NCBI GenBank assembly: GCA_023150615.1
Contig: JAKLKO010000004.1
Coordinates: 62,001 to 126,000 of the forward strand
From: Phycisphaerae bacterium
Lineage (GTDB): Bacteria > Planctomycetota > Phycisphaerae > UBA1845 > UTPLA1
Direction: 5' to 3'
DNA: 64,000 nt
A program made the position numbers and the translations under genes. Positions 9,894 to 33,384 of this stretch are shown here, piece by piece (within the stretch, counting starts at the first letter, position 1; every line of letters starts with the position of its first letter). A model generated the notes under the pieces. That model was not told where the DNA came from, searched no databases, and saw nothing but the letters and a program-made list of their open reading frames with translations.

Positions 9894-11750
9894 ATGTGCG
9901 GTATCGCGGGAATCGTGCGACTCGACGGCGCGGCGGTGGACCGGGGCGTGCTGAGGGCCATGACCGACGCGATCGCGCATCGCGGTCCGGACGACTTTGG
10001 CTACTGGCTCGACGCGGGCGTCGGGCTCGGCCATCGCCGGCTGAGCATCATCGACCTGTCGCCGGCCGGGCATCAGCCGATGTCGAACGAAGATGGATCG
10101 GTCTGGATCACGTACAACGGCGAGGTCTACAACTTCCAGGACATTCAGCCGGAGCTGGCCCGGGCCGGACATCGTTTCCGGTCGCGCAGCGACACGGAAG
10201 TCATCCTGCATTCGTACGAGCAGTGGGGGCCGGAGTGCCTGTCGCGGTTCAACGGGATGTTCGCGTTCGGGTTGTGGGACGGGCCGCGACGGCGACTGTT
10301 CCTCGCCCGGGACCGTTTCGGCGTCAAGCCGCTTTTCTACTGGACCGACGGCCGGACGTTCTGCTTCGCGAGCGAGATCAAGGCGCTGCTGGCGCATCCG
10401 GACGTGCCGAAGCGGCCGCAGCTCGACGTGGCCTGCGACTATCTTGCGGAGGGATTGATCGATCACCGGACCGAGACGTTCTTCGAGGGCATCTACTGTC
10501 TGCCGCCCAGCACGGCGATGCTGGTCAGCGCGGATGGCACGCGGTCATGGCGCTACTTCCGGCTCGATCCGGAGTTCAAGCGCCGCGTGGAGGATTCGCG
10601 CGAGCCGATCGAGGAGTTCCGGAGTCTGTTCAGCGACGCGGTGCGACTGCGGCTCATCAGCGACGTTCGCGTGGGCACGAACCTCAGCGGTGGGCTGGAT
10701 TCGTCGTGCGTCGCGTCGATGGCCGTCGCGCAGTTGCGCCGCAGCGGCGGCTATCTGCCGCACATCACCTTCAGCGCGTGCTTCGACGATCCGGAGTTCG
10801 ACGAGCGGCCTTACATCGACCTGGTGGCCCGCGAGCTGCCGCTCGAGCGACGCGAGTGTTTCCCGGAGGACGCGGACCTGCTCGAGCAGATTCACGCACT
10901 GATGAAATGCCAGGACCAGCCGGTCATGAGCGCGGCGATGATCGCGAAGGGCGACGTGATGGCGCTGGCGCGGGCGAACTCGATCAAGGTCGTGCTCGAA
11001 GGTCAGGGCGCTGACGAATACCTCGCGGGATACTCCGACGCGGCGGCGCCGGCCGTCGCGGATCAGCTCCGCCGCGGCCGGCTCGGCGCAGCGCTGAGGC
11101 AGTTCAGCGCGTACCGGCGGCTGCAAGGGCTGACGTTGGCGCAGGCGGCGCGGTCGGTGGCGCGCTACGCGGTGCCCTCCGGGCTGCTGCACGAATGGCG
11201 CGGGTCGAGCAACGGCCGGGCGGGGTGGCTCGCCGATCCGAACCGGCGGCGGCCGCCGGTCGAACCGGTGCGCTTCGCGAGCGGGCACCTCGATCACTGG
11301 TGCCTCGAGGCGATGTTCCATCACTTTCTGCCGTTCTATCTTCGCACCGACGACCACAACGCGATGGCGCATGGCGTGGAGGGGCGCCAGCCGTTTCTCG
11401 ATTACCGGCTGGTTCAGTTCGTGCTTTCGTTGCCGGGCGACTACCGCATTCAGAACGGCATCAGCAAGTGGATCCTGCGCGAGGCAATGAGCGGTATCGT
11501 GCCCGAGCCGATCCGTGTGTACCCCGGCAAGCGGCCGTTCCCTACGCCGGACGGCAAGTGGATGCACGGCTCGCAGCGGGCGGCGGTGGAAGCGCTGCTG
11601 ACGAGCCGCTCGTTCGCGTCGCGGGGGATCTTCGATCCGGCGGGGGCGCGAGAGGTCTTTCGGCGCTTCTGCGACGGCGACATGCGGCTGCGGCCCGTGG
11701 TATGGCGTCTGGTGAATTACGAGCAGTGGCTGCGCTGCTTCAACATTTAG
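9894..11750 (+). CDS. asnB: Asparagine synthase-type glutamine-dependent amidotransferase (first copy)
   Basis: A 618-residue class II amidotransferase. The N-terminal nucleophile cysteine follows the initiator methionine (MCGIAGIVRLDG). The glutaminase domain continues with HRGPDDFGYW, GHRRLSIIDLSPAGHQPM and TYNGEVYNF. The synthase domain has the ATP-binding loop NLSGGLDSS at about residue 265 and an intact EGQGADEYLAGY segment. The family makes asparagine, but in polysaccharide loci relatives such as WbpS amidate uronic acids. Placement beside the ManNAc3NAcA-type genes makes a sugar-amidating role attractive but unproven. It leads a compact plus-strand run extending to 25030. Confidence 0.9.
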   Translation: MCGIAGIVRLDGAAVDRGVLRAMTDAIAHRGPDDFGYWLDAGVGLGHRRLSIIDLSPAGHQPMSNEDGSVWITYNGEVYNFQDIQPELARAGHRFRSRSDTEVILHSYEQWGPECLSRFNGMFAFGLWDGPRRRLFLARDRFGVKPLFYWTDGRTFCFASEIKALLAHPDVPKRPQLDVACDYLAEGLIDHRTETFFEGIYCLPPSTAMLVSADGTRSWRYFRLDPEFKRRVEDSREPIEEFRSLFSDAVRLRLISDVRVGTNLSGGLDSSCVASMAVAQLRRSGGYLPHITFSACFDDPEFDERPYIDLVARELPLERRECFPEDADLLEQIHALMKCQDQPVMSAAMIAKGDVMALARANSIKVVLEGQGADEYLAGYSDAAAPAVADQLRRGRLGAALRQFSAYRRLQGLTLAQAARSVARYAVPSGLLHEWRGSSNGRAGWLADPNRRRPPVEPVRFASGHLDHWCLEAMFHHFLPFYLRTDDHNAMAHGVEGRQPFLDYRLVQFVLSLPGDYRIQNGISKWILREAMSGIVPEPIRVYPGKRPFPTPDGKWMHGSQRAAVEALLTSRSFASRGIFDPAGAREVFRRFCDGDMRLRPVVWRLVNYEQWLRCFNI

Positions 11751-11782: not shown

Positions 11783-13618
11783 GTGACGCTCGATGACTTT
11801 GCCGGCGCCGTCTGCTTCGATCGGCCCGATCGCGTCGGACGTGCGCTCGACGCCATGACGCGGGAGTTCCTGCGCTTCGACGGTGTGGCAACGGGGGAGG
11901 CGTCCGGCCGCGGATGGGTCGTGCGGCGATTTGCGTGTCGCGATGATCTCGCGTCTGCGCGGCCGATCCGTTCACCGGACGGGCACCGCGTGATCGTTTG
12001 GTTTGGCGACTTCTACGATGCGGCGATGAGGGCGGGCGGCGACGTCGGAGCGGCGCTGCTGGAGGGTGTGCATTGTCATGGAGCGGACTGGGTCTCGAAG
12101 CAGAACGGCGTCTTCGCCGGGGCGATGATCGACGCGCGCGAGCGAACGGTCGTGCTCTTCGGCGATCGCTACGCGACGCGGGCGCTATTCTATCGGATCG
12201 ACGCGGACGGTGTGCTCTTCTCGACGCGGCTTCTGCCGCTGTGCCGCACTTGCGAGGGCGGCGTGCAATTGAACCAGCGCGCGCTGGCCCGACGGATGCG
12301 AGCCCAGTTCCTGCGCGGCGATGACACGCTGGTTTCGGGAATCGAGCAGCTTCCGCCGGCGACGGTCCTCACGATCCGCGACGGCCGGCCAACCTCAACG
12401 ACCTACTGGTCGCCGCAGTATCGCACCGCCTTTCGTCCCGACGACCTCGACCGTTGCGCAGACGGATTCGTCGACTCGCTGACGCGGGCGATTCAGCGTG
12501 CAGTGTCGGCGTCCAGCGCTCCGTTCGGCAGCCTGCTGAGCGGCGGACTGGATTCGCGAATCATCGTCGGTCTGGCCGCTCCGATCTGCCGCGACCTGTA
12601 CACGCTGGCTTACGGGATCGACGGCAGCGACGACCGCGTCTACGGCGCCGCGGTGGCGTCGGCCGTCGGCGCTGCGCACGACGGGTTGACGATTGATCCG
12701 GACGCGCTGCTGGATCGGCTCGATCGCGGGCTGTTCCTGACCGATGGGATGCTCGACCTTCGGCACTTCCACGGACTGGCGGCGTACGGTCGCATGAAGC
12801 CGCGCGTGCGGGCCATCTTTGACGGGCAGGCGGGCGATCATTTCACCGGATACCTGCTGACAAAGACGCTGGAGTGGATGCGCGAGCGGTCGCCCGCGGC
12901 GCTGGTTCGCGCGCTGTACGAGATTGACGCGACCTCGTCCGAGGCGCTCGGGGATGAGGTGCTGGCGGCGGTGCTGCCAACCGAGCTGCGCGAGCACTAC
13001 CGCGCGATTCCGTCGGAGTATCCGCAGTTCGTAAACGCCTGCCGACAGGAGCGGTTCGGCGACTGGGTCGACGCGTTCCATCTGCGGCAGCGGCAGCGGC
13101 GCTACATCGCGAACACGGTCAACAACATCCGCGCCGAGCTGCCCGTGCTGACGCCGTTCCTCGACTACGAATTCGTGGATTTCTGCCTGACGGTCCCGGA
13201 GGAGATGCGCTGGAAACGCCGGCTCTACATTCACACATTCACCCGGCACCTGCCGGCGCTGTCGCGGATTCCGTGGTCCGCAACCGGCCGGCCGATCGGA
13301 GCGGATCCGCTTCCGGTGTCGCGCTGGAAGGAGCTTCGGGCCCGGTGCGTCGCGACGATCCGGCGGCGCTCGGGGTATCGGCTGTTCGCGAACGACCCGC
13401 AGCGATTCGCCGATTACGACGCGTGGATGTCGCGTCACGCCGGCTGGCGCGCGACGGTGATCGACTCACTGACCGGTGCCGAGAGTCGACTCGCGCCGCT
13501 GTTTGATGCGGGATTTCGGCATGACGTGCTCAATCGATTCGTACGCCGCGGCGCCGGGGGCGGGACGGTCAGCAACCTCGTGTCGATCGAACGCTGGTTG
13601 CGGCTGGCGCTGGGATGA
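11783..13618 (+). CDS. AsnB-like protein lacking the glutaminase cysteine
   Basis: About 611 residues with two-domain AsnB architecture. The N-terminal half keeps the fold signature (GVFAGAMIDARERTVVLFGD, LFYRIDADGVLFSTRLLPL), but the cysteine that must follow Met1 is missing: MTLDDFAG aligns with MCGIAG so that Asp4 replaces it. The C-terminal half has an intact ATP-pyrophosphatase loop LLSGGLDSR at about residue 253 and a later DGQAGDHFTGY. It may use free ammonia or another amine, as in beta-lactam-synthetase-like or other AsnB-derived ligases. The start is GTG at 11783, with ATG 11702 (overlapping asnB) possible. It overlaps the methyltransferase that follows by four bases. Confidence 0.82.
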   Translation: MTLDDFAGAVCFDRPDRVGRALDAMTREFLRFDGVATGEASGRGWVVRRFACRDDLASARPIRSPDGHRVIVWFGDFYDAAMRAGGDVGAALLEGVHCHGADWVSKQNGVFAGAMIDARERTVVLFGDRYATRALFYRIDADGVLFSTRLLPLCRTCEGGVQLNQRALARRMRAQFLRGDDTLVSGIEQLPPATVLTIRDGRPTSTTYWSPQYRTAFRPDDLDRCADGFVDSLTRAIQRAVSASSAPFGSLLSGGLDSRIIVGLAAPICRDLYTLAYGIDGSDDRVYGAAVASAVGAAHDGLTIDPDALLDRLDRGLFLTDGMLDLRHFHGLAAYGRMKPRVRAIFDGQAGDHFTGYLLTKTLEWMRERSPAALVRALYEIDATSSEALGDEVLAAVLPTELREHYRAIPSEYPQFVNACRQERFGDWVDAFHLRQRQRRYIANTVNNIRAELPVLTPFLDYEFVDFCLTVPEEMRWKRRLYIHTFTRHLPALSRIPWSATGRPIGADPLPVSRWKELRARCVATIRRRSGYRLFANDPQRFADYDAWMSRHAGWRATVIDSLTGAESRLAPLFDAGFRHDVLNRFVRRGAGGGTVSNLVSIERWLRLALG

Positions 13619-14595
13619 TGGAAGCGGACACGGCGAACGACGCGCGTGCGACACCGGACGCAGAACTCGCGAAGATCGTGGCCGATCCGCAGTCGGTGCA
13701 GGCCGGGGCGTGGCTGGCGGGCGTGCTCCGACACAATCCAAGAGCGGTCGTGTCCGACGTTGCCGATCCGCGCGGAGTGCCCGATCCGAACAGTGACGTG
13801 CCGATACCCGATTGGCCCTTCGCGCCGGGCGATGGCAGATCGCGGCAGGTGCTTGAAGCGTTGGCGCGAGCCGGATTGCTGGAGCGGGTCGGGGCGGAGG
13901 CATTTTGCGCGTCGAGCGCCGGCCGGCCGATCCTGGCGGCGCTGCCGCTGTATCACGCGCGGAATCGCGAGGGGTACGAAGCGGCCTGGGCGGAGTTTGT
14001 GGACACCGTCGCGGGCCGACGGGTACTCGACGCAGGTTGCGGCGTCGGCGCGGGCACGCGCTGGCTGGTGGAACTCGGCGCGCGGCACGTCGTGGCGCTC
14101 GACCACTCGGCGGAGCGGCTTGGTGTGGCGCGGCGGCTGGCTCCGTGCGCGGGTCGTTCCGCGAGCTTCGTTCGGGCGTCGGTGGAGTGCCTGCCACTGC
14201 AGGATGGTTGCGTCGACCGGATCTTCAGCCGGGTTGTGCTTCCGTACGTGAACCACCGTCGATCGCTGTCGGAGTTTGCGCGGGTGCTTGCGCCCGGCGG
14301 ACTGGCGATGCTGATCCTGCACGCGCCTTCGTTTTACCTGCGGTCGCTGCTTCGGATTCGACCGACCGTTGCGGGTGTCCGCGAGGCGGCATACTCCGTG
14401 TTCGGCTTGCTGGGCGGTGCAGCGTTGGAACGGCTGGGGCGCGAGCCGCGCTGGCGATCGTCGCGTCGGGGGTTTCATCTCGCCTACGAGCGGCGCGGCA
14501 CGATGGCTCGACTGGTGGAGCAATGCGGAATGGAGCTGGTTCGCTGGGTGCCCGCCGGGACCAAACCGATCGCGTGTCTGAGAAAGGGTGCCTGA
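13615..14595 (+). CDS. Class I SAM-dependent methyltransferase
   Basis: A 326-residue protein. The SAM-binding motif I is VLDAGCGVGAGTRW near residue 137, followed by HVVALDHSAERLGVARRL and ECLPLQDGCVDRIFSR. The later RSLSEFARVLAPGGLAML is the usual post-motif III. This is a Methyltransf_11-type enzyme; the first 120 residues form an N-terminal extension without a recognised domain. The gene starts at an ATG overlapping the stop of the Cys-less AsnB-like gene. Methylation of a sugar or of an amide-bearing intermediate is plausible from context, but the acceptor is unknown. Confidence 0.82.
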   Translation: MMEADTANDARATPDAELAKIVADPQSVQAGAWLAGVLRHNPRAVVSDVADPRGVPDPNSDVPIPDWPFAPGDGRSRQVLEALARAGLLERVGAEAFCASSAGRPILAALPLYHARNREGYEAAWAEFVDTVAGRRVLDAGCGVGAGTRWLVELGARHVVALDHSAERLGVARRLAPCAGRSASFVRASVECLPLQDGCVDRIFSRVVLPYVNHRRSLSEFARVLAPGGLAMLILHAPSFYLRSLLRIRPTVAGVREAAYSVFGLLGGAALERLGREPRWRSSRRGFHLAYERRGTMARLVEQCGMELVRWVPAGTKPIACLRKGA

Positions 14596-14656
14596 TTCCG
14601 CAGCCCGGACCGCGCGGGCGCGAAGTGCCGCCGTGCAGCGGGCTGGACGCGATATC

Positions 14657-15697
14657 ATGATTCCGCATCCGCTTCACGATTGGGCCCGATGTCCGTACGA
14701 CGTCGCGGCCGGCCCGCTGGCGGTCGTCGAGTCGTCGGCGGACGGGTCGTCCGCCACGCTCCGATGCCCGTCGTGCGGCCGGACGTATCCGATTTCGGAT
14801 GGGATCTACCGGCTGATGCCGGATGAACTGCGCGACGATGCGCACGCGGGCGATGCGGGGGGCGATCCCGTGCTTGCGCAGATGAAGCGTGAGATGCGGC
14901 AGCGCGACGAACGAGCGTCGACGTCGGGCGTGGCCGCCCCCGCGCCGCCATCGCAAGCGCTGGACTGGATGGGCATCCAGTTTTCGGCGGTCACGCGTCA
15001 TGTCACGGTGGCCGCCGGCGCGATCTGCGCCGACTTCGGCTGCGGCGCCGGGCGCTACACGACGTGGTTGCTGGAGCGGTGCGATCGGATCATCGCGACG
15101 GATTTTTCGTATGCGTCGCTGCGGGCGCTGGCACGATCGCTCGACGATTCGCAGAGGCGCCGCTGCATTCTGATCCAAACGGATCTGACAAGGCTTGCCC
15201 TGGCCTCGTCGGCGGTCGATCAGGGCCTGTCGGTCGAGGTCCTTCAGCACATCCCGAGCGCGGCGCTGCGCGCCGACGCCCTGGCGCAGCTCGCGCGGGC
15301 CCTCAAACCCGGTGCGCGACTGGTGCTCGTGACCAAGGCCTACTCGCCAATCCTGCGACTTGTCGATGCGCGAGATCGCCTCACCTGGTGGTTTCGGCGC
15401 ATGCTCGGGGATCGCTCCCCGCGACCGCGCGGGTGTCGGGAGGACCAGAACGGGCCGATCTACACGTATCGCCATTCCTTTCACGAAGCCCGCCGCGCCG
15501 TCACGCATGCGTATGAACTGGATCGGGCGTTGGGGATCATCTCGTACGCGTCGCCCCCGCTGGCGCGATTGCCGCAATGGCTGCGAGTGCGGGCCGATCG
15601 CTGGTGCGAACAAAACGTCGTCGGCCGATGGCTCGGCCGCGACCTCTTGTTCGAGCTTCGTCGGAAGGACGCCGAATGCCCGCAAGCGAACTCATGA
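14657..15697 (+). CDS. SAM methyltransferase with N-terminal zinc-ribbon (Trm112-like) segment
   Basis: About 346 residues. The first 60 contain a cysteine pattern (ARCPYD ... LRCPSCGRTYPISDGIYRLM) like Trm112-type zinc ribbons found at the front of many bacterial methyltransferases. The methyltransferase part has ICADFGCGAGRYTTWLLE, DRIIATDFSYASLRAL and a hydrophobic post-motif LARALKPGARLVLVTK. The ATG at 14657 is chosen; GTG 14588 would add 23 residues and overlap the upstream gene. It overlaps the next gene by ATGA. It is the second methyltransferase in a row, so both may act on the same glycan. Confidence 0.8.
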   Translation: MIPHPLHDWARCPYDVAAGPLAVVESSADGSSATLRCPSCGRTYPISDGIYRLMPDELRDDAHAGDAGGDPVLAQMKREMRQRDERASTSGVAAPAPPSQALDWMGIQFSAVTRHVTVAAGAICADFGCGAGRYTTWLLERCDRIIATDFSYASLRALARSLDDSQRRRCILIQTDLTRLALASSAVDQGLSVEVLQHIPSAALRADALAQLARALKPGARLVLVTKAYSPILRLVDARDRLTWWFRRMLGDRSPRPRGCREDQNGPIYTYRHSFHEARRAVTHAYELDRALGIISYASPPLARLPQWLRVRADRWCEQNVVGRWLGRDLLFELRRKDAECPQANS

Positions 15698-17052
15698 GCG
15701 GCAGACCCCAATCCGCGACTTCGGCGGACTCGATCGGCGCTCGGCCCGGCCGGCTCAAGCGAGTGCTCATGGTCGCTCAGCAGTTCTATCCCTGCGCGGC
15801 GATTGGCTGTCATCGAACGGGCAAGTTCTGCAAGTACCTGCCGGAATTCGGCTGGAAAGCGTCGGTCCTTACGGTCGCGAAGGACTATTCGAATGAGCGC
15901 TACGATCCGTCGCTGTTGAAGCAGCTCCCGGCGGACACGGAGATCCTCCGCACGTTCTATCCCGACGAGGCCGTGCTCCGCCACCTGGTTCGATCCGTGT
16001 TGCGGCGTCGGCCGCCGACGGTCGCATCGCCCGCGGTCTCCGCTCCGTCGGCAAACGGTTCGCGGCCGCAGATTCCGCTGATCCGCTGGCTCGCCGTTCC
16101 CGATTGGGCGGTCTACTGGTGGCCCTGGGCGGTCTCGGCGGGTCTGCGGATGGCGCGCCGCGCGGACGCGATCTACGCCACGGCGCCGCCGCATGGTTCG
16201 CTGGTGATTGCGGCGACACTGGCGCGGCTGGCGCGGCGGCGGCTCGTCCTCGACCTGCGCGATCCGTGGATGCTCGATCGGACGCTCGCGTATCCGACGT
16301 CGGCGCACCGCGCGGCGAACGAGCGCCTCGAGCGCTGGTGCTTCGGCATTGCCGATCGCATCGTCGTCAATACCGTGCCGGCCCGTGACGCGTATCGGCG
16401 GCTGCATCCGGATCTCGCCGACCGGTTCGTGACGGTGCCGAACGGATACGATCGCGCGGACTTTGACGGACTGACGCCGACGGCGATCGCACGTCGCGAT
16501 CCGCGTGCGGTGACGATGGCCTACGTGGGAAATCTCCATGGCGAGCGGGACCCGCGCCCGCTGTTGCGGGCCGCTCGACAATTGCAGGGCGAATCCGGTG
16601 GAGCGCTCCGAGCGGAAGTGCATTTCTGGTCGGCGACGGGCGAGCTCGTCGCGAGCGCGATCAGGGACGCCGGCGCGGAGGCGATCGCGACGCTGCACGA
16701 TCCAGTTGCGCATCGCGATGCGCTCGGCGCGATGCTCGGCGTCGATGTATTGCTGGTCTTCGGGGCGTCGGACACCGACGATCTTCACGTGCCGGGAAAG
16801 CTGTTTGAGTACATCTACTGTCGAAAACCGATCCTGGCGCTCGTGCGACGCGGCGCCATCTCCGACCTGATTGACGAGTACCGGCTCGGTCTGTGGTGTG
16901 CGCCGGACGATGCGACGACGCTGGCGCAACACCTGCAGCGGCTGGCAGAATGGCGCGTGAGCGGGACGCCGTGGCCGTTCCGCCCCGACGTGTTCACGGC
17001 GTTCGATCGTCGTGAGCAGGCGCGGCAGCTCGCGGAGTTGCTGAACGGATGA
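15694..17052 (+). CDS. Glycosyltransferase, GT4-like (GT-B fold)
   Basis: A 452-residue protein. The N terminus KRVLMVAQQFYPCAAIGCHRTGKFCKYLPEFGWK is typical for GT-B transferases acting on glycans, with the acceptor-side Rossmann strand. Later segments are VTVPNGYDRADFDGL, MAYVGNLHGERDPRPLLRAARQL, a donor-side region, and VPGKLFEYIYCRKPILALV. Such enzymes transfer a sugar from a nucleotide donor to a lipid-linked oligosaccharide at the cytoplasmic face. Start 15694 overlaps the previous stop; an in-frame ATG lies at 15676. The FemAB-like gene follows with a four-base overlap. Confidence 0.83.
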   Translation: MSGRPQSATSADSIGARPGRLKRVLMVAQQFYPCAAIGCHRTGKFCKYLPEFGWKASVLTVAKDYSNERYDPSLLKQLPADTEILRTFYPDEAVLRHLVRSVLRRRPPTVASPAVSAPSANGSRPQIPLIRWLAVPDWAVYWWPWAVSAGLRMARRADAIYATAPPHGSLVIAATLARLARRRLVLDLRDPWMLDRTLAYPTSAHRAANERLERWCFGIADRIVVNTVPARDAYRRLHPDLADRFVTVPNGYDRADFDGLTPTAIARRDPRAVTMAYVGNLHGERDPRPLLRAARQLQGESGGALRAEVHFWSATGELVASAIRDAGAEAIATLHDPVAHRDALGAMLGVDVLLVFGASDTDDLHVPGKLFEYIYCRKPILALVRRGAISDLIDEYRLGLWCAPDDATTLAQHLQRLAEWRVSGTPWPFRPDVFTAFDRREQARQLAELLNG

Positions 17053-18134
17053 GCGGTAGCGTGTACGGCGCGCTGCGGCCGGAGGAATTCGCCGAGTGGA
17101 ACGACTACGCGCGGCAGAGTCCGCTCGGGAACATCTTCTGCAACACCGACTGGGCGGCGACGCTGGCCGTGTGGGACAACGAATTTGAGGTCTTCGCGGG
17201 CCGGCGGGACGGGACGTTTTGCGGCGGGGTGGTTATCAACTCGCGACGGCTGCCGGTCGTGGGCTGGCGGCTGGCGAACGTCGAGGGCGGCGTGCTGCTC
17301 GACCCGGAAGACGCGGAGGAGTTCGCGCGGTTTTACGACGCTCTGATGGGACACCTGCGGCGCACGGGATGCGTCGAGTTGCGGCTGCTTATCAGGAATC
17401 CGATCCGGGTCGGCGACTCCACGTTCGAGAACCGGCGGCGGATCGACGAGTTCCTCGCCGCGCGCGGCATCCACAACACCGTACCGGTGAACGGGACGTA
17501 CTGGATCGATCTGAAGCAGGACGACGACGCGCTGCTGGCGCGGATGAGCAAGAACTGCCGCCGCGACGTCCGCAAGGCGGAGCGGGAAGGCGTCACCGTC
17601 GAGGACTCCAACTCAGCCGAGGCACTCGACACGCTGTACGATCAGTTCGCCGCAACGTACGGGCGAAAGGGACTTCGAATCCCCAAGCGCGACGTGTTCG
17701 TTGCCACGATCGAGCCGCTGCTGCGAAAAGACCTGATGCGGATCTACTACGCGCGCTTCGACGGCCGAATCGTGAACATGGCGCTCGTCGCTCGATTCGG
17801 CTCGGCACGATATACCCGCGGGGCGTCGATCGCCGCCGAATTCGAGCGGCCGATCCCGCCGACCGGCCAGATCCTGCACTTCGAAATCATGCGGCGGCTG
17901 CGGGCCGAAGGGTACCGGCTCTATGATCTGGGCGGCAGTCCGGGTCCCGAGCCGCAGGAGGGCCATCCGAACTACGGCGTGTGGCGCTTCAAACACGGCT
18001 TCGGCGGGTCGTTCGCGCAGGACCTCGGGGACTATTCCATCGTCCTGAACCGCGTCGGACGGCGGCTGATGCAGTCCGCCCGGCGCTTGCACGATCGATT
18101 CAGCGGGCGACATGTCCGGCTGCCGGCGGAGTAA
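17049..18134 (+). CDS. FemAB/FemX-like GNAT-fold acyltransferase
   Basis: A 361-residue protein with the double-GNAT arrangement of FemAB-related proteins. Notable segments are SPLGNIFCNTDWAATLAVWD near the N terminus, NGTYWIDLKQDDDALLARMSKNCRRDVRKAEREGVTV, split here as a typical W.DL....L...M....R..I..A pattern, and YDLGGSPGPEPQEGHPNYGVWRFKHGFGG near the C terminus. Classical members add amino acids from aminoacyl-tRNA to peptidoglycan; many in exopolysaccharide loci are uncharacterised. The gene overlaps the glycosyltransferase before it by ATGA. An amino-acyl or acyl decoration of the polysaccharide is a reasonable guess. Confidence 0.82.
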   Translation: MSGSVYGALRPEEFAEWNDYARQSPLGNIFCNTDWAATLAVWDNEFEVFAGRRDGTFCGGVVINSRRLPVVGWRLANVEGGVLLDPEDAEEFARFYDALMGHLRRTGCVELRLLIRNPIRVGDSTFENRRRIDEFLAARGIHNTVPVNGTYWIDLKQDDDALLARMSKNCRRDVRKAEREGVTVEDSNSAEALDTLYDQFAATYGRKGLRIPKRDVFVATIEPLLRKDLMRIYYARFDGRIVNMALVARFGSARYTRGASIAAEFERPIPPTGQILHFEIMRRLRAEGYRLYDLGGSPGPEPQEGHPNYGVWRFKHGFGGSFAQDLGDYSIVLNRVGRRLMQSARRLHDRFSGRHVRLPAE

Positions 18135-18245: not shown

Positions 18246-19598
18246 GTGACGCAATACGGTCAACTTGCGTACCCGGCCTTCGGTGCGTCCGAGCTGTCGG
18301 CGTCGTGGAGCGCGCCGGCCGAACTTGACGACGTGGCCCGTGCGCCGCTGCTTCTGGTGTTGTTCATCGGGTTGTTCGCGGGCTCGTCGTTCGCGCTGGG
18401 CGATCATCCGACGCTGTTCCGCATTCCGTATTACCTCGGCATTGCCAGCGCCGTGATGGTCACGATCATGTACCTTCGGATGCAGCTCAGCATCCCCGCG
18501 CCGGTCTTCATCTACGCCGCATGGGTCGTGTGGGCGGCCATCGGCGTGTTTACAGCCGAGTTCCGCGAGATGGCGCTGCTGTCGATGTCCACGGCGCTTC
18601 AGTTTCTGGTCCTGATGGCGCTGTTTGCGACGATGTGCCAGGACAGCCGCGCGATGTGGATCGTCGGAATCTGCATCGTGCTGGGGTCATTTGCCAACGT
18701 GGTCGCCACGTGGGCCGGATTCACAGCGATACCGAAGTTCTCGGATCGCGCGGCGGGATTGCTCCGCAATCCGAACTCGACGGCGCTTGCCTACGGGATC
18801 GCGGTGTGCATCTGCTACGGCGGACTGGTGGCGACGCGAAGCTGGATCGTCCGCATCATCACGATCGGACTGATCATCGGTTTCATGTACGGCATCGTGC
18901 GTACGGCCTCACGAAGCGGCGTCCTCTCGGTCGGACTGATGACGCTGTACGGGCTGTGGCACTATCGCCGCCGGATCGTCCGGCGGCCGTCGGCGCTGAT
19001 TCTGATCGCGATGACCGTGATCGTCTCTGTGATCGCGCTGCCGAGGGTCCTGTCCCAAACGGTGCTTGCCGAACGCATGACGGCGGCCGTGGGGCAGATT
19101 CGCGGCACAGCCTATCGCAAGGAAGGCTCGGTCGAGGCCCGGGTGGGGCTGAAGTTCGAGGCCCTGCGCGTCATCATGGACCATCCCGTGTTCGGCGTCG
19201 GACTGACGAATTTCCCCGTCTACACGCTGCGTCGCGAAGGGCGGGACCTCAGCACGCACGACAACTACCTCGAGATCCTCGCGTCGACGGGTCTCCCCGG
19301 TTTCGCGTTCTTCTACGCGATCTACGTCTGGGCCTGGTACTGGGCGGGGCGCCTGCGGAAGTCCGAGCTCATCACCGATTCGGAACGGACGCTGACGTCG
19401 CTCATCCGGATGTTCGTGATCCTGCTTCTGTCCGCCGACATCTTCTCGAACACGACCTGGAGCAACAAGGCTGTGTGGACGCTGATGGCGCTCTCGGCCG
19501 GGCTGTTGCAGGGCCTGCGCACGCGGATCACCCGCCGTGCGGCAATGGTCGCGGTCGACGAGACGCCCGAGACGCTCCCGGTGCCCACGCGCGCCTGA
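18246..19598 (+). CDS. O-antigen polymerase/ligase family membrane protein (Wzy/WaaL type)
   Basis: A 450-residue polytopic membrane protein with about ten or more hydrophobic segments beginning near residue 30. The Wzy_C-type core is visible: RTASRSGVLSVGLMTLYG, EARVGLKFEALRVIMDHPVFGVGLTNF and the large periplasmic-loop motif STHDNYLEILASTGLPG. The family polymerises undecaprenyl-linked O-units or ligates polysaccharide to lipid A/acceptors; the two activities cannot be separated by reading. GTG start at 18246 has AGGAG ten bases upstream. It sits with the Wzx-type flippase, consistent with a Wzx/Wzy route. Confidence 0.87.
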   Translation: MTQYGQLAYPAFGASELSASWSAPAELDDVARAPLLLVLFIGLFAGSSFALGDHPTLFRIPYYLGIASAVMVTIMYLRMQLSIPAPVFIYAAWVVWAAIGVFTAEFREMALLSMSTALQFLVLMALFATMCQDSRAMWIVGICIVLGSFANVVATWAGFTAIPKFSDRAAGLLRNPNSTALAYGIAVCICYGGLVATRSWIVRIITIGLIIGFMYGIVRTASRSGVLSVGLMTLYGLWHYRRRIVRRPSALILIAMTVIVSVIALPRVLSQTVLAERMTAAVGQIRGTAYRKEGSVEARVGLKFEALRVIMDHPVFGVGLTNFPVYTLRREGRDLSTHDNYLEILASTGLPGFAFFYAIYVWAWYWAGRLRKSELITDSERTLTSLIRMFVILLLSADIFSNTTWSNKAVWTLMALSAGLLQGLRTRITRRAAMVAVDETPETLPVPTRA

Positions 19599-19660: not shown

Positions 19661-21589
19661 ATGTGCGGAATCGCGGGTTTCCTGACGCGGTCTGAGTCGC
19701 GCGATGCGGAGCGCAAGGTCCGCGCGATGACCGACGCCATCGCGCACCGCGGGCCGGACGACGCGGGCTGTCACGTCGCGCACTACGACGATCCCGCACT
19801 GACCGTTGCACTGGGACATCGGCGTCTCAGCATCATCGATCTGTCGCCCGCCGGGCATCAGCCGATGCAATCCTCGCGCGGCGAAGACCTGTGGATCGTC
19901 TTCAACGGCGAGGTCTACAACTTCCTCGAGGTCCGCAAGGACCTGGAGGCGCGAGGATTCGCCTTCCGCTCGGCCACGGACACCGAGGTCATTCTTGCCG
20001 CGTACGAGGCGTGGGGCGTCGAATGCGTCGCCCGACTGGACGGCATGTTCGCCTTTGCGATCTGGGACGGCCGCGAGCGCCGGCTGTTTCTCGCTCGGGA
20101 TCGAATCGGGAAAAAGCCGCTTCTGTACCGCCTCGCGTCCGACGGAATCGCGTTCGCGTCCGAACTGACGGCCCTGACGACGCTGTCCGACGTTGACCGG
20201 CGCTTCGACGAACAGGCGCTGGCGGGCTATTTCACGCTGGGCTTTGTTCCTGGTGAGCGGACGGTCTTTTCGGCCGTTCGCAAGCTGCCGCCGGGATGCT
20301 ATGCGATGTGGCGTGATGGAGATTGGACGTGTCGACCGTACTGGGAGGTGCTTCCGCACCTGCGCAGCACCGGCGGGTCGTCGCCGAACGAGGAAGCCGT
20401 CCTCGACGAACTGGATGCGCGGCTCCGCGCCAGCGTTCGCAAGCGGTTGATCAGCGACGTGCCGCTGGGCGCGTGGCTTTCGGGAGGGATCGACTCCAGT
20501 CTCGTGGTCGCCGAGATGTGCGCAGCGCAGGGCGGCGACGTGCGGACCTTCACGATCGGCTTCGACGATGAGGCCCACGACGAGTCCGGTGTCGCCCAGG
20601 CCGTGGCAGCGCACTTCGGCACGCGCCACGAGGTTTTCCGCATCAGCGCCGCCGAGTTGCTCGCGGCGGTGCCCGACGTCGCCGGCGTCTATGACGAGCC
20701 GTTTGCGGACACGGCCGGGGTCCCGACGTACGTTCTGTCTCGATTGAGCCGCCGGCAAGTGACCGTCGCGCTGTGCGGCGACGGAGGCGACGAGGGTTTC
20801 ATGGGCTACCTGCATTACCGGCAGGGGCGGGTGCTCGACGCGTTGCAACGCGTGCCGCGCGCGGTTCGGCGGAGCGCCGCGGCCGTCGCGGGTCGATTCG
20901 GTGGCTTGCGCTGGCGGCAGCGCGCGCGCACGATTGCCTTCGACGACTGGGCCGCGCTCTATGTCTCGCTGACCTCGTCGCTGAGGGCCGCGGACGGCCT
21001 TCAGGTCGTACCGTACTCGTTCCTGCTCGATGGTACGATCTACCGCCGCGTCGCCGAGGCCCTCGAAGGGCGCGACGCCCTCACGATGCTGACGGCCCTC
21101 GATCTGTCGACCACGCTGCCCGACAAGTTCCTCGTTAAGGTCGATCGCGCCGCGATGAGCGTCGGGTTGGAGGTCCGGGCTCCGTTCCTCGATCACCACC
21201 TGATTGCGTGGGCGGTCACGCTGCCTGCGACGCTCAAACTCCGCGGTGGCGTGACGAAGTATCTGCTCCGCCGCCTGTTGCGTCGGAAACTCCCCCACGC
21301 GCTTGTCGAACGACCGAAGTGCGGTTTTTCGCCCCCGATGGGCCGCTGGCTCCGCGAGGACCTGGCCGACTGGGTCCGCGACACGCTCGCGCCGCGGAGG
21401 GTCCGAGACACGGGGATCCTGAACGAGCGGGCGGTGACATCGCTCGTCGATGCACACCTGTCCGGACGCGCCGAGCTGGGAACGGCGTTGTGGATGCTCC
21501 TCTGCTTCATGACGTGGCACGCGCGGGTCTTCGGTCCGTCGAGCACCGCACGCGCGCCGGCTGTCCCGGCGGTCGCCGAGCCATCATGA
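19661..21589 (+). CDS. asnB: Asparagine synthase-type glutamine-dependent amidotransferase (second copy)
   Basis: A 642-residue complete class II amidotransferase. Cys2 is present in MCGIAGFLTRSES, followed by HRGPDDAGCH, GHRRLSIIDLSPAGHQPMQ and FNGEVYNFLEV. The synthetase loop WLSGGIDSSLVV starts at about residue 274, and CGDGGDEGFMGY carries the second ATP-side motif. The C terminus ends VDRAAMSVGLEVRAPFLDH with the usual family tail. It differs clearly from the copy at 9894, so it is not a recent duplicate. It overlaps the deacetylase behind it by ATGA, which argues for a glycan role rather than general asparagine supply. Confidence 0.9.
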   Translation: MCGIAGFLTRSESRDAERKVRAMTDAIAHRGPDDAGCHVAHYDDPALTVALGHRRLSIIDLSPAGHQPMQSSRGEDLWIVFNGEVYNFLEVRKDLEARGFAFRSATDTEVILAAYEAWGVECVARLDGMFAFAIWDGRERRLFLARDRIGKKPLLYRLASDGIAFASELTALTTLSDVDRRFDEQALAGYFTLGFVPGERTVFSAVRKLPPGCYAMWRDGDWTCRPYWEVLPHLRSTGGSSPNEEAVLDELDARLRASVRKRLISDVPLGAWLSGGIDSSLVVAEMCAAQGGDVRTFTIGFDDEAHDESGVAQAVAAHFGTRHEVFRISAAELLAAVPDVAGVYDEPFADTAGVPTYVLSRLSRRQVTVALCGDGGDEGFMGYLHYRQGRVLDALQRVPRAVRRSAAAVAGRFGGLRWRQRARTIAFDDWAALYVSLTSSLRAADGLQVVPYSFLLDGTIYRRVAEALEGRDALTMLTALDLSTTLPDKFLVKVDRAAMSVGLEVRAPFLDHHLIAWAVTLPATLKLRGGVTKYLLRRLLRRKLPHALVERPKCGFSPPMGRWLREDLADWVRDTLAPRRVRDTGILNERAVTSLVDAHLSGRAELGTALWMLLCFMTWHARVFGPSSTARAPAVPAVAEPS

Positions 21590-23818: not shown

Positions 23819-25030
23819 GTGAACGATGTTTCTCCGTCAAGGGTAGCCCGGCCGCAGCCCGCGCGACGCGAGCGCCGTGGCGGGGTCTGGTTGCTGCGGT
23901 TCGGAGTCCTCGCCGTTGCCCTGATTGTCGCGCTCGGCCTGACCGAGGCCGCGCTGTGGATCGTCGCCCCGATCAAGTTCCATGAGTGGATGATCTGGAT
24001 ACCGGACGGTCACATCAAGGGACGAGCCGAGCCGGGGCAGGTCTTCAAGACCGGCGACGGCTACGACGTGCGGATCAACAAGCTCGGGTTCCGCGGACCG
24101 GACTACACGTGGCATCCCGCGCCGGGGACGCTTCGCATCGCATGTTTCGGTGGATCGTCGACGTTCTGCTATCACGAACGCGGCGAGGAGGAGACCTGGC
24201 CCGGCCGTCTCCAGACCAATCTCTCGAAGGTCCTGGGCATGCCGGTCGAGGTCATCAACCTCGGCCTGCCGGGTTACGACACGTCGAACTCGAAGGTCAA
24301 TTACGTGTTCGTGGGTCGCGAGCTGCATCCGCACGTCGCGCTGGTCTACCACACGTGGAACGACATGAAGTTCTTCCGCAGATTGGCGGACGGACCGATC
24401 GTTTTCTTCGACGTGGCATCGAACAAACCGCTCTGGCAGAAGATCGCGCGGCAGACGCAGATCGCGCGGCGCGTCCGCAACTTTCTGCTCGCCATGGAGT
24501 ACATGAAGACCGAGAATTACTACACCAGTCTCGAGGAGTCTGACGCGGAGGCGAATCAGCCGGTCTCGCCCGCGGCGCTCGCGTGGGCCCGGCGTAACTT
24601 CGATGACATCGCGCGCTTCGTGCGGGGGGACGGTCGGCTTCCGGTGCTGATCACGCAGGCGACGATCTGCGTTCCGGAGAATTTCGACGATACGGAGTAC
24701 CGCCGGCAGATGGGCAGCGAGATGGTCGGGATGACGGTTCCGATCATCCACCGGACGTGGCTGGAGATGAACCGCATCATCCGGGACGTCGCCGAGGAAC
24801 GAAACGCCGTTTTCGTCGATGGCTACAACGTCGTACCGCACGACTTCGAACACATGCAGGACGAGGTGCACCTGACGTCCAGGGGATGCGCCGTCCTCGC
24901 CGCGGAGATTGTGCGGGTACTGATGCAGGACCCGAGGTTCCTCGAGGTGGTCGAGCGCGTTCGGGGTGAGGGGCTTTCGGCGGCAACGCAGCCCTCGGCA
25001 ACGCGGCCGACCGTGCCGGCAGGGGATTGA
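23819..25030 (+). CDS. Membrane-anchored SGNH/GDSL-family hydrolase
   Basis: A 403-residue protein with one N-terminal membrane segment (about residues 22-45, FGVLAVALIVALGLTEAALW) and a periplasmic SGNH domain. Block I is CFGGSSTF with the nucleophile serine, the glycine block is NLGLPGYDTSNSK, block III is YHTWND and the final block is DEVHLTSRG with the Asp-x-x-His pair. Relatives act as esterases or acetyltransferases on extracellular polysaccharides. GTG 23819 is chosen, with GAGGTG (23806-23811) upstream. It is the last gene of the plus run, converging with the GT4 gene after 22 bases. Confidence 0.83.
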   Translation: MNDVSPSRVARPQPARRERRGGVWLLRFGVLAVALIVALGLTEAALWIVAPIKFHEWMIWIPDGHIKGRAEPGQVFKTGDGYDVRINKLGFRGPDYTWHPAPGTLRIACFGGSSTFCYHERGEEETWPGRLQTNLSKVLGMPVEVINLGLPGYDTSNSKVNYVFVGRELHPHVALVYHTWNDMKFFRRLADGPIVFFDVASNKPLWQKIARQTQIARRVRNFLLAMEYMKTENYYTSLEESDAEANQPVSPAALAWARRNFDDIARFVRGDGRLPVLITQATICVPENFDDTEYRRQMGSEMVGMTVPIIHRTWLEMNRIIRDVAEERNAVFVDGYNVVPHDFEHMQDEVHLTSRGCAVLAAEIVRVLMQDPRFLEVVERVRGEGLSAATQPSATRPTVPAGD

Positions 25031-25052
25031 GTTTGCGCACCCGCTGGCGGCC

Positions 25053-26138
25053 TCAGGACGATGTCCGGCCCGCGACCTTGATGGCACGCTGCAACAGCGA
25101 TTCGAGTTGTTCCAGCAGCCGATTCCGATCGAGACGTTCGATGATCGTGCGGCGGTTGATCTCTCCGGCGCGTTCGCGCAGCGGGGCGTCTGTGGCGGCG
25201 CGCCGCAGGGCTTCAGCACATCGCGCATCGTCGCCAACCGGGAACAAGAGGCCGTTCTCTCCATTGCGGAGCCAATCCCGATTCGCGCGGATGTCCGTCA
25301 CGACGGGGAAGACGCGGCAACTCATGGCCTCGAAGAGCGAGCTGGGGGCGCCGTCCGACTTCGCCGCGGACACGTACACGTCGGCCCAACGGAGATGATC
25401 CGGAACCTGTACGTGGTCCACGTCGCCGAAGATTCGGACACGGTCATCGAGCGAGAAGGCACGGACAAGCGAGCGGGTCTTCTCGATCGTCGTGCCGGAG
25501 CCGACGAAGCGGAACTCGAATTCAAAGCGGGCATCGCGCAGCCGCGCCAGCGCCCGCACGATCGTCTCGTTGTCGTAGATCGGATCGTGCTTCCGCGTGC
25601 AGATGATCCGCGGCGGTCCAGCGTCGCGCGGACCGCATCGAGGCGCAAACACGGCTGGATCGGTCCCGAGCGGGAACACCGTGAACCTCTCGGCCGGCAG
25701 GCCTATCGCAATGAGCGCCTCGGCCAACTCGGCGCTGGACGCGTGCAGCAGGTCGGCCCGCCGACCGATCCATCGCAGGAGTCGATCTTGCAGGAACTTC
25801 GGCAGCGGGAATCCCCCGTCGGTGCCTCGCGAGCTGATCACGAGCGGCGTTCGCTTCGTCAGCGCGCCGATCAGGCCGTTCGAACGCACGTACGTCGCCA
25901 TGACGACGTCCGGCGCGATCGTTCGGATCAGGTTTCGAACCCGTCGTGCGCGAAGCAAATAGATAAACTTGGGCAGTTCGCCCGTGGCGCTATCCGCGCC
26001 GACGTAGTGCACGCGGATGCCGGGGATCGGCTTCGGATGGAATGAGATCACATGGACGTCATGTCCGCGCGATTGCAGGTATTGCGCGTAGTACGGGGCC
26101 CAAGGCGAGTTCGTATGAGCGATGAAACACACGCGCAT
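25053..26138 (-). CDS. Glycosyltransferase family 4 (paralogue of divergent neighbour)
   Basis: A 361-residue GT4 enzyme. It starts MRVCFIAHTNSPWAPYYAQYL at 26138 and contains VVMATYVRSNGLIGALT, IICTRKHDPIYDNETIVRAL, FVGSGTTIEKT and APSSLFEAMSCRVFPVVTDI. It is clearly paralogous to the head-to-head neighbour at 26243, which shares the same motif order. An upstream in-frame start at 26204 would add 22 residues lying within the short divergent gap. It probably adds a sugar to the same glycan or a variant of it. Confidence 0.87.
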   Translation of the reverse strand: MRVCFIAHTNSPWAPYYAQYLQSRGHDVHVISFHPKPIPGIRVHYVGADSATGELPKFIYLLRARRVRNLIRTIAPDVVMATYVRSNGLIGALTKRTPLVISSRGTDGGFPLPKFLQDRLLRWIGRRADLLHASSAELAEALIAIGLPAERFTVFPLGTDPAVFAPRCGPRDAGPPRIICTRKHDPIYDNETIVRALARLRDARFEFEFRFVGSGTTIEKTRSLVRAFSLDDRVRIFGDVDHVQVPDHLRWADVYVSAAKSDGAPSSLFEAMSCRVFPVVTDIRANRDWLRNGENGLLFPVGDDARCAEALRRAATDAPLRERAGEINRRTIIERLDRNRLLEQLESLLQRAIKVAGRTSS

Positions 26139-30242: not shown

Positions 30243-31190
30243 TTGAGCACGGAAACATTCGACGAATCTGATGTCGTCTCCTGGGAGACGGACGAGTACG
30301 CACGGCGACTGGCCGTCCGGGGGCATCCGGTTCATTGCCATGACGGCGTGTGGTGGCTGGCCGTGCGAAAGCGGTACTGCTGGACGCTGGACCCGCTGAT
30401 GGTGGAGCCGCCGGGCCGGCGCGTGCGACCGGCGCGGCGTCCTGCGCTCGCGGGGTATCAGATCCGCGTCACCGATCCGGACGAGGCGAACGGCTACTTC
30501 AATCCGATGGTGCTCGACGACCTCCCGGCCTATCGCCTGGAGAAGACCGTCGATGCCGCCCGGCGGAACCGGATTCGAAAGGGGTTGAAGGTGTTCAGCG
30601 TCCGGCCGCTACGGGTTCCCGAAGCGCTGATCCGTGACGGCTGGAAGATTGAGACGGAGTTCTTCGAGCGCACGAACTGGCATCCACCGCCGACACTCGA
30701 CGAGTGGCCCGAGTACTGCGAACGGGCCTTTCGGCCGCCGGTCATCGATCACAAGTTGGGCGCCTTTGCCGGCGAACGGTTGGTTGCGTACATGACCTGG
30801 TTCGGGATCGGTCGAGCGGCGCATGTCGCGCACATCGCGTCCGGCCACGAGGGCGTGAAGCAGTGTGTGAATGACGCCTTGCTCTACGAGTGGCTTCGAA
30901 TTCTGCGCGAGTCCGGACGGTTTGATCGGGCCGTCTATTCGATCCGTTCCTTCAAGGCGTCGCTCGATGCGTTCAAGGAGGAGCATGGGTTCCGGATGCA
31001 GTCGTATCCCAGCCGGATCGTAATCAATCCCGTCGTCCGCGTCGTCCTGCGCGCGGCGAAACCGCAATTCGTGCCGCGCGTCATGGGTTTGGACGCCGCG
31101 GGCGTCCGCGCGTGGCTTGAGTCGGGCCGGAGAGTCAGCGCGAGCGACCAGCGCGGTTCCACGGTGCCGACGGCTCCGGGCGAGCGCTGA
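30243..31190 (+). CDS. GNAT-fold acyltransferase-like protein, FemAB-related
   Basis: A 315-residue protein whose pattern fits the GNAT/FemAB-like group: DDLPAYRLEKTVDAARRNRI, FEERTNWHPPPTL-type central part, VAYMTWFGIGRAAHVAHIASG, and SIRSFKASLDAFKEEHGFRM near the C terminus. The last segment is the usual acyl-CoA or tRNA-acyl acceptor lobe in this fold. It starts with TTG at 30243 after AAAGGA (30231-30236). A candidate promoter lies at 30094-30123, so it probably starts its own transcript. Substrate unknown. Confidence 0.65.
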   Translation: MSTETFDESDVVSWETDEYARRLAVRGHPVHCHDGVWWLAVRKRYCWTLDPLMVEPPGRRVRPARRPALAGYQIRVTDPDEANGYFNPMVLDDLPAYRLEKTVDAARRNRIRKGLKVFSVRPLRVPEALIRDGWKIETEFFERTNWHPPPTLDEWPEYCERAFRPPVIDHKLGAFAGERLVAYMTWFGIGRAAHVAHIASGHEGVKQCVNDALLYEWLRILRESGRFDRAVYSIRSFKASLDAFKEEHGFRMQSYPSRIVINPVVRVVLRAAKPQFVPRVMGLDAAGVRAWLESGRRVSASDQRGSTVPTAPGER

Positions 31191-31281
31191 GGTCCGAAGA
31201 CGGTCGGATCCTCAGGCGGACGGACTCGCCCGAGCTCAGCGGTGGTCGGCGAATGGAAACGGCTCAACATGGGAGGCTGAA

Positions 31282-32331
31282 ATGAGCGCCCGCACGATGC
31301 GTATCCTGGCGGCGTCGCTGCTTCTCGGCGGAATTCACGACGTGTGCGTCGGAACGGACGCAGCCGTGTCCGATACCGCCGTTCTCGTCCGTAACGAGGA
31401 TGAACTACGTGCCGCGGCAGCCCGCGCCGCCCGCGGCGATCTTAACATCCTGATCGACGGCGTGATCACCGTGCGGCGCGGCGTTTACTTCTCCGCGCGG
31501 GATTCCATCGTCCGCCTGATGGGCACTCGCGAGAACGCCGGAATCCGCTTCGATATGGTCTTCGACGGCAATTGGGCAAATCCCGGATTCCGTACCGACA
31601 ACGGAATCCACTTCAATTGCCGCCAGGCCATCGTCCGCGGCCTGACGTTCAGCGGATACGAGTGGTCTGGGGCGGTGATCAAGGGTCACTGCACCGAGCT
31701 GTTGGCGGTGACGAAGTGCCGCTTTTTCGACATCGGCCGCAAGCAGTACAAGCCGCGCCGCGAGCCACCAGCCGATTCGGGCGACTGGCTCTACAACCAC
31801 TGTATCGCCGCACACGAGATGAACGCCGGGCACATCTCGGTTACGGATTGCGAATTCGAACGCTGCGTCTGGAGTAGTTGGGCCTGGTCGCATTGCATGT
31901 ACATCTCCGCGCGCTCGGTGCTCGTTTCCGGCAATCGGTTCATCGAGTGCGGAAACCCGTTTGCGGTGGGCGGGCAGGTCCGAGGCGCGTCGGTCACGAT
32001 CCTCGACAACGAGGTGTTGCGTCCGCACGCCGGGCCCGATCAGCGAAAGACCCAACGCTTCGCGTTCTTCGCGAGCCTCGACACCGCCGATCTGACGGCC
32101 ATCGCGTTCAACCGTCTGGAAGGTCAGTTCGAATGCCCTTGGACCGGCCAGCCCAATCCGCCCCGACACCTCGTCGATTACAACGACTATTCCGGCGCCG
32201 TTGTCGGCGGCGGCTGGGCAGCCGACACGACGCGCGGAAAATACTTCGGCTGGGAGGATTGGCAGCGCGCCGGTTTCGATCGGAATTCCCGCCCGCCCAA
32301 ATCAGCGCCGGCACGCGCGCCGGCTCCCTAG
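31282..32331 (+). CDS. Secreted right-handed parallel beta-helix protein
   Basis: A 349-residue protein with an N-terminal signal-like segment (MRILAASLLLGGIHDVCVG) and a repeated beta-helix pattern. Visible coils include GIHFNCRQAIVRGLTFSGYEW, split as I..N..A.VRGLTF, ISVTDCEFERC, ARSVLVSGNRFIECGNPF and VTILDNEVLRP, each with the regular N or hydrophobic ladder spacing. Family members are polysaccharide lyases, epimerases or inert binding proteins; no catalytic set is recognised. GGGAGG (31271-31276) precedes the ATG. Its position among deacetylase genes suggests action on the exported glycan. Confidence 0.75.
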   Translation: MSARTMRILAASLLLGGIHDVCVGTDAAVSDTAVLVRNEDELRAAAARAARGDLNILIDGVITVRRGVYFSARDSIVRLMGTRENAGIRFDMVFDGNWANPGFRTDNGIHFNCRQAIVRGLTFSGYEWSGAVIKGHCTELLAVTKCRFFDIGRKQYKPRREPPADSGDWLYNHCIAAHEMNAGHISVTDCEFERCVWSSWAWSHCMYISARSVLVSGNRFIECGNPFAVGGQVRGASVTILDNEVLRPHAGPDQRKTQRFAFFASLDTADLTAIAFNRLEGQFECPWTGQPNPPRHLVDYNDYSGAVVGGGWAADTTRGKYFGWEDWQRAGFDRNSRPPKSAPARAPAP

Positions 32332-32367: not shown

Positions 32368-33384
32368 GTGTTCTGGCTTGCGCTCGTTGTCTTCGGCGTT
32401 TTTCCGGCGCTGCTGCTGCTGGAGATGGCGCGCTGCGCCTGGCTGGAACACCGCACCGACCGCATCCCGATCCTGCTGTACCACCGGCTGATCTCGCGCG
32501 AGGCTGTTCGCGCCGGCCGCATTCCCGACGACGAACCGATCTACGCCAGCTACGACGATGTCTTCGCAGCGCACATGGACTACCTGCACCGTGCCGGCTA
32601 CGTGACGCTCAGTCTCGACGACGTGCTGGCCATCCGCGCGGGACGAATCGCCCCGCCGGAGCGGGGGGTGGTCGTCACGTTCGACGACGGCTACGAGAGC
32701 AACTACACGATGGCCTTTCCGGTGCTCAGGCGTAACGGGCAGCGGGCGACGATCTTCGTTGCGCCACAGCCCGACGAGCACACGCGGCGGCTGGTTGCGG
32801 GGATCGACGGATTCCTCACCCCGGCGCAGATGCGGGAGCTCGACTCCGGCGGCGTCGCGATCGAGTCGCACACGCTGACGCATTGCATCCTCGCCGACCT
32901 CGACGATGACGCGGCACGGCACGAACTTGTCGAATCGAAGCGCGTGCTGAGCGAGCTGATCGGCCGGCCGGTCCGGCACCTGGCGATCCCGCGTGCGGGC
33001 TACAGCCGGCGGATTCGCCGCCTGGCGATCGAGGCCGGCTACGAGTCGGTCTGCTGCAACAACAAGGGCAGCAGCAACGGCTGGTCGAACCGCTACGCGT
33101 TGCCGCGGATCGTGATCGAGCGGGACATGACGGTCGAGGACTTCGCGGCGGCGCTGCGGCCGCGATCAGCGATGGTGCTGCGTCTCGTCGGAAACATCAA
33201 GCGAATTCCCGAGCGTATCTTCGGCGCTCGAGGCGCCCGCGCCTTGCGCGTGTGGCTGTACAATGGCCCGCTGGCCGGATGGTTCGTGACGCGCCGTCTG
33301 AAGCGCGTGCTGGCGGGTGCCGCGCTGGCCTACGTCGTACTTTGCGGAGTGTTTCTCTGGAAATGGTTTGTCGGCGCTCGCTGA
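32368..33384 (+). CDS. Membrane-anchored polysaccharide deacetylase (CE4)
   Basis: A 338-residue protein with an N-terminal hydrophobic helix (LALVVFGVFPALLLLEMA) and a second one near residues 312-332 (VLAGAALAYVVLCGVFLW). The catalytic domain shows IPILLYHRLIS, VVTFDDGYESNYTMAFPVL and IESHTLTHCILADL with motif 1 aspartates and motif 2 histidines intact. It starts with GTG at 32368 and its last base is shared with the ATG of the next deacetylase. Tandem arrangement suggests stepwise deacetylation at two membrane sites. Confidence 0.85.
   Translation: MFWLALVVFGVFPALLLLEMARCAWLEHRTDRIPILLYHRLISREAVRAGRIPDDEPIYASYDDVFAAHMDYLHRAGYVTLSLDDVLAIRAGRIAPPERGVVVTFDDGYESNYTMAFPVLRRNGQRATIFVAPQPDEHTRRLVAGIDGFLTPAQMRELDSGGVAIESHTLTHCILADLDDDAARHELVESKRVLSELIGRPVRHLAIPRAGYSRRIRRLAIEAGYESVCCNNKGSSNGWSNRYALPRIVIERDMTVEDFAAALRPRSAMVLRLVGNIKRIPERIFGARGARALRVWLYNGPLAGWFVTRRLKRVLAGAALAYVVLCGVFLWKWFVGAR

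Follow-up and report, generated by a model that had tools for sequence, protein, structure and literature searches.

A cysteine-less asparagine synthetase-like protein in a planctomycete polysaccharide locus and its very probable place in an SGGxDSR branch of the AsnB fold family

The window, that is, the whole 64,000-nucleotide stretch of Phycisphaerae DNA analyzed here, contains an open reading frame at 11783-13618 (+ strand, GTG start) encoding a 611-amino acid protein, P0001, which very probably belongs to an old branch of the AsnB fold family whose members lack the glutaminase cysteine and carry an arginine directly after the PP-loop (SGGxDSR). The losses of glutaminase and synthetase residues are lineage-wide and not peculiar to P0001. 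Cys-less AsnB relatives, like the AsnB fold itself, are already known. The open-access literature searched yielded no account of the SGGxDSR branch, which is no proof of absence, and a search for papers on a Cys-less AsnB branch in loci for O-antigen or exopolysaccharide brought no direct match; a solved structure from the branch was also sought, and none was found.

Results

P0001 is encoded in a polysaccharide operon

When compared with Pfam, P0001 matched Asn_synthase (8.2e-23), GATase_7 (6.8e-7) and, weakly, GATase_6, and it passed the gathering score of the Asn_synthase fold family (PF00733) with 82 bits vs 21. Matches to PF00733 number eight in the whole genome from which the window comes. 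P0001 missed the cut-offs for glutamine-hydrolysing AsnB (TIGR01536; 108.7 bits vs 267.1), the XrtA/PEP-CTERM amidotransferase (TIGR03108; 74.3 vs 816.9) and the lasso-peptide cyclase (NF033535; 57.4 bits vs 525). GC content by codon position in the gene was 0.70/0.51/0.82, with similar values in the neighboring genes, and codon bias was normal. The gene run that includes P0001 begins with a complete AsnB (9894-11750), and its other members are listed here with it.

9894..11750, + strand: complete AsnB-type amidotransferase (MCGIAG, SGGLDSS, PGKRPF), 32 bp upstream of P0001
13615..14595, + strand: SAM methyltransferase MT1, whose start overlaps the P0001 stop by 4 bp
14588..15697, + strand: SAM methyltransferase MT2, with a Trm112-like N-terminus, overlapping MT1
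15577..17052, + strand: GT4-type glycosyltransferase, with distant relatives beside other Cys-less homologues
17049..18134, + strand: FemAB/Acetyltransf_6 (GNAT) protein
18246..19598, + strand: Wzy_C O-antigen ligase/polymerase
19661..21589, + strand: another complete AsnB-type amidotransferase, nearest to TIGR03108 (XrtA system) and below its cut-off

A first-pass annotation of this DNA had coupled the gene to two methyltransferases, which the overlaps of MT1 with the P0001 stop and of MT2 with MT1 bear out, and had assigned it to a glycan locus, in agreement with the glycosyltransferases, Wzy_C ligase, FemAB/GNAT protein and polysaccharide deacetylases around it, the last lying further along the locus on the same strand. 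Several of the operon proteins belong, as distant members, to families known from the XrtA/exosortase system; the single exosortase of the genome is encoded on a different contig. In the window, the overlapping frames 32368-33384 and 33252-34328 each match a PgaB-type polysaccharide deacetylase and are apparently tandem genes, and long frames at 24966-26045, 30243-31190 and 31117-32331 in the glycan locus had no Pfam or NCBIfam match.

The glutaminase site of P0001 is lost

The first-pass annotation described an AsnB-like protein with aspartate at the cysteine position, and this proved real: LDDFAG of P0001 aligns to MCGIAG, placing Asp4 (11792..11794, + strand) in the column of the AsnB glutaminase nucleophile Cys1. 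The glutamine-site residues Asn74 and Asp98 are replaced by Phe and Val in the 72-row alignment described below. The reading frame is open upstream as far as an ATG at 11195, and an MC start was sought in the in-frame upstream residues (...GMASGELRAVAALLQHLEPTAVSAARTIVTLDDFAG); there was none, which ruled out a missed upstream start and left the Cys-less N-terminus standing. We also considered the adjacent AsnB as a source of ammonia and found that it has its own glutaminase domain; since this neighbor is complete, a split glutaminase partner for P0001 was ruled out. The aspartate itself had been regarded as a meaningful substitution, a view that the relatives do not favor, as they carry Pro or Ser at the same position, and Asp4 was rejected as a new nucleophile because the position is not conserved. 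From these residues, hydrolysis of glutamine by P0001 is very unlikely.

The PP-loop is kept and synthetase residues are replaced

The ATP loop, SGGLDS, was found intact at residues 253-258, as had been claimed. This and three further motifs of the synthetase domain are located as follows.

12539..12559, + strand: SGGLDS PP-loop followed by Arg259 (SGGLDSR), the mark of the Cys-less branch
12821..12841, + strand: DGQAGDH where AsnB has GEGSDE, with the metal-binding Asp351 kept and Glu352 changed to His
13088..13105, + strand: QRQRRY motif, common to the nearest Cys-less relatives (L038, L050, L053)
13271..13297, + strand: PWSATGRPI where AsnB has the Lys449 motif WRQKEQF

In the 72-row alignment, Glu352, Lys429 and Lys449 correspond to His, Ile and Arg of P0001, with the Lys429/Lys449 region aligning less surely than the rest. 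A motif of the R-x-K-x-x-F type was sought in that region of P0001 and is absent, and PWSATGRPI has no lysine at the equivalent of beta-lactam synthetase Lys443, the counterpart of AsnB Lys449. Because the equivalents of Lys429, Lys449 and Glu352 are missing as well, the fault in P0001 extends beyond the glutaminase site. The subgroup that includes P0001 combines the QRQRRY/F motif (QRQRRF in L052) with a P-x3-TG-x-P motif at the place of the Lys449 motif. An AlphaFold2 model of P0001 has the two-domain AsnB fold (pLDDT 70, pTM 0.79), with residues about 500-546 poorly predicted, and its best PDB matches were TsnB9, asparagine synthetases, beta-lactam synthetase and carbapenam synthetase.

Cys-less proteins with SGGxDSR form a separate branch

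Seventy-two family members were aligned, 48 with Cys1 and 24 without, one of the latter (L075) being a truncated fragment. Arginine follows SGGxDS (position 240, E. coli numbering) in 23/23 full-length Cys-less proteins vs 0/48 Cys-bearing ones. Conversely, Arg49, Asn74, Asp98, Asp351, Glu352 and Lys429 are present in 48/48 Cys1 proteins and Lys449 in 47/48, and none of these residues is common to the 23 Cys-less proteins, which at position 1 have Pro (14), Ser (6), Asp (P0001 only) or otherwise a gap. Because part of the 72-row set had been collected with a profile of Cys-less proteins, we examined a second sample, drawn from 31 relatives with the general Pfam model. It yielded 29 further sequences with cysteine at position 1 (L130 doubtful), all of which keep Asp351, Glu352 and Lys449 and none of which has the arginine; the newly found Cys-less proteins L120, L121 and L122 all have it after the loop.

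In a maximum-likelihood tree of 34 rows, one 100/100 branch split 18 Cys-less from 16 Cys-bearing proteins, and P0001 grouped on the Cys-less side, where the inner order is unresolved and branches are long. Values of dN/dS between close pairs of Cys-less genes were 0.16-0.25; these pairs are thus under purifying selection, which argues for a working protein. The pair L040 and L043 was left out of these values because of wrong coordinates. Another Cys-less AsnB relative, L131:8485-10254 (G021:C72), has Ile after the PP-loop and keeps both synthetase lysines; because the lysines are kept and the arginine is missing, it is of a different kind from the SGGxDSR branch.

Relatives of P0001 and their loci

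A scan of 84,980 species genomes for close relatives, with P0001 alone as query, gave no match, and in the genomes searched no relative exceeded about 28% identity along the length of P0001. The best relatives are L052 of an Acidobacteriota MAG, with 28% identity across most of the protein, and L053 of Jettenia, and a protein of the L038 type from the same phylum as P0001 is nearly identical to a Candidatus Jettenia protein. Further Cys-less members came from a profile search across 392 Planctomycetota genomes. Most of the Cys-less relatives lie in loci for polysaccharides, in Planctomycetota as well as in one MAG each of Acidobacteriota and WOR-3; where the surroundings of the Acidobacteriota and Jettenia relatives were read, the Cys-less gene had no AsnB next to it. 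Methyltransferases, GNATs and glycosyltransferases recur as neighbors of several relatives, but they are common in such loci anyway, and an attempt to deduce the substrate from these conserved neighbors was dropped for that reason.

The window's own genome encodes a second Cys-less paralogue, with SGGVDSR (L044:8658-10703, G000:C4). It is 45% identical to L121:9161-10903 (G010) from a genome of the same family, and the SGGVDSR type is therefore more conserved in the family than P0001.

At L047:11162-13144 and L048:6033-8015, a glutamate-mutase gene has a Cys-less AsnB-like gene directly downstream in a glycan locus. The mutase is MutE (E chain) fused to a weak match to a B12-binding domain, with one copy per genome, and the MutE type is rare in the phylum (over the cut-off in 6/392 genomes). 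The link was seen in two close genomes only, and a search for methylaspartate ammonia-lyase, which had a match nowhere, is uninformative about it. This neighbor hints at an amino acid substrate (3-methylaspartate) in that lineage only.

Fusions of AsnB-like parts to glycosyltransferases were also seen. L103:1-3411 (G003:C43) holds a frame of >1100 aa in which a complete AsnB is joined to a family 2 glycosyltransferase, and long frames of L104 and L106 are similar to it; the 1375-aa frame at L123:7695-11819 (G014:C1) combines GT2 and GT4 domains with a degenerate AsnB-like part in which no PP-loop is recognisable.

Discussion

A possible role for P0001 and its rivals

The reading that we tentatively prefer, rating it somewhat below an even chance, is that P0001 is a glutaminase-dead, ATP-binding condensing enzyme which would act on a glycan building block or a lipid-linked glycan. 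What we infer for its substrate and reaction is that P0001 may still bind ATP or another pyrophosphate compound and would link a pair of units of the polysaccharide made by the operon, with no use of glutamine. The likeliest course would be activation of the carboxylate of a uronic acid or an amino acid, followed by its transfer to an amine or hydroxyl, with Arg259 and the arginines of QRQRRY perhaps replacing the lost lysines in phosphate or transition-state contacts. The conventional upstream AsnB would make a separate primary amide, e.g., a uronamide, and MT1 and MT2 may modify the unit further. AsnB and beta-lactam synthetase chemistry depends on the lysines that P0001 has lost, and because of this, adenylation by P0001 is not assured. 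It is doubtful, though conceivable, that the SGGxDSR branch is a separate ligase class which uses arginines for the AsnB lysines and, in many polysaccharide pathways of bacteria, couples an amino or uronic acid to a glycan unit through an amide or ester. For P0001 itself, the amide- or ester-forming ligase suggested in the first-pass annotation may still be right.

The strongest rival to a condensing enzyme is a catalytically dead pseudo-enzyme subunit that would bind the upstream AsnB and steer or stabilize it. Such a role would fit the loss of the AsnB synthetase lysines on top of that of the glutaminase site, as well as the tandem arrangement with a complete AsnB, but the strictly kept PP-loop and the near-invariant arginine are unexpected for a dead domain, and the Acidobacteriota and Jettenia loci are without an AsnB beside the Cys-less gene; we consider this reading unlikely, while giving it serious weight. 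Decay of the gene to a state without function is very improbable: P0001 is indeed very divergent and sits on a long tree branch, but its 611-codon frame is intact, its codon bias normal and the genes of its operon overlap, and there is purifying selection among Cys-less relatives.

Two further readings keep P0001 within known chemistry. AsnB Cys mutants retain ammonia-dependent activity, which would suit an ammonia-dependent uronic-acid amidotransferase forming a WbpS-type uronamide from free NH3, but Lys429 and Lys449, required in the AsnB reaction, are missing from P0001. Although the AsnB-type WbpS of P. gingivalis does make uronamide (PMC7468200), a third, crippled AsnB would be redundant in the P0001 locus, because two complete AsnBs already share it, and such an amidotransferase is improbable. 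An amide formed within one substrate, in the manner of beta-lactam synthetase or lasso cyclases, would agree with the Cys-less state and the common fold; the Lys443 position without lysine, the lasso model score of 57 against a cut-off of 525, and the different kind of Cys-less relative in the phylum that keeps the lysines and has no arginine (L131) make it hardly credible.

SGGxDSR proteins are named asparagine synthases by family, although residues for each of the two half-reactions are missing from them. Should they be active, as in the condensing-enzyme reading, they would represent an unassigned step in the building of surface polysaccharides and would offer a way to test how chemistry can be switched on the AsnB scaffold; if they are inactive partners, the asparagine-synthase annotation would be equally misleading. 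The sequence signature that separates the branch from true AsnB is the absence of Cys1, the presence of SGGxDSR and the absence of the Lys449 motif.

Comparison with known systems

P0001 shares with E. coli AsnB (PF00733 + GATase_7) the two-domain fold, the SGGxDS PP-loop and Asp351, and differs from it by having no Cys1, Asn74, Asp98, Glu352, Lys429 or Lys449 and by the arginine after the PP-loop. WbpS (PGN_1234), the AsnB-type protein of P. gingivalis that makes glucuronamide (PMC7468200), and the XrtA-system amidotransferase (TIGR03108) belong, like P0001, to the AsnB family and to surface-glycan loci. The two complete AsnBs of the window, at 9894 and 19661, resemble this WbpS kind, which fits them, both having Cys1, and not P0001.

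The first-pass annotation had compared P0001 with beta-lactam synthetases and lasso cyclases. Beta-lactam synthetase (1jgt) and the carbapenam synthetase CarA (1q15) have the same fold as P0001; both are without the glutaminase cysteine, keep the catalytic lysine and act on antibiotic substrates, whereas P0001 lacks that lysine. Lasso-peptide cyclases (NF033535) also have the AsnB fold and sit in peptide clusters, in contrast to the glycan locus of P0001. Given the missing lysine and the low lasso score, the comparison did not hold up, and both are poor models because the branch lost its synthetase residues lineage-wide. The best structural match of P0001 is the hydroxyamidotransferase TsnB9 (7ylz; TM 0.65-0.68), which, unlike P0001, has a cysteine at position 2 (MCG) and SGGLDSS at the PP-loop.
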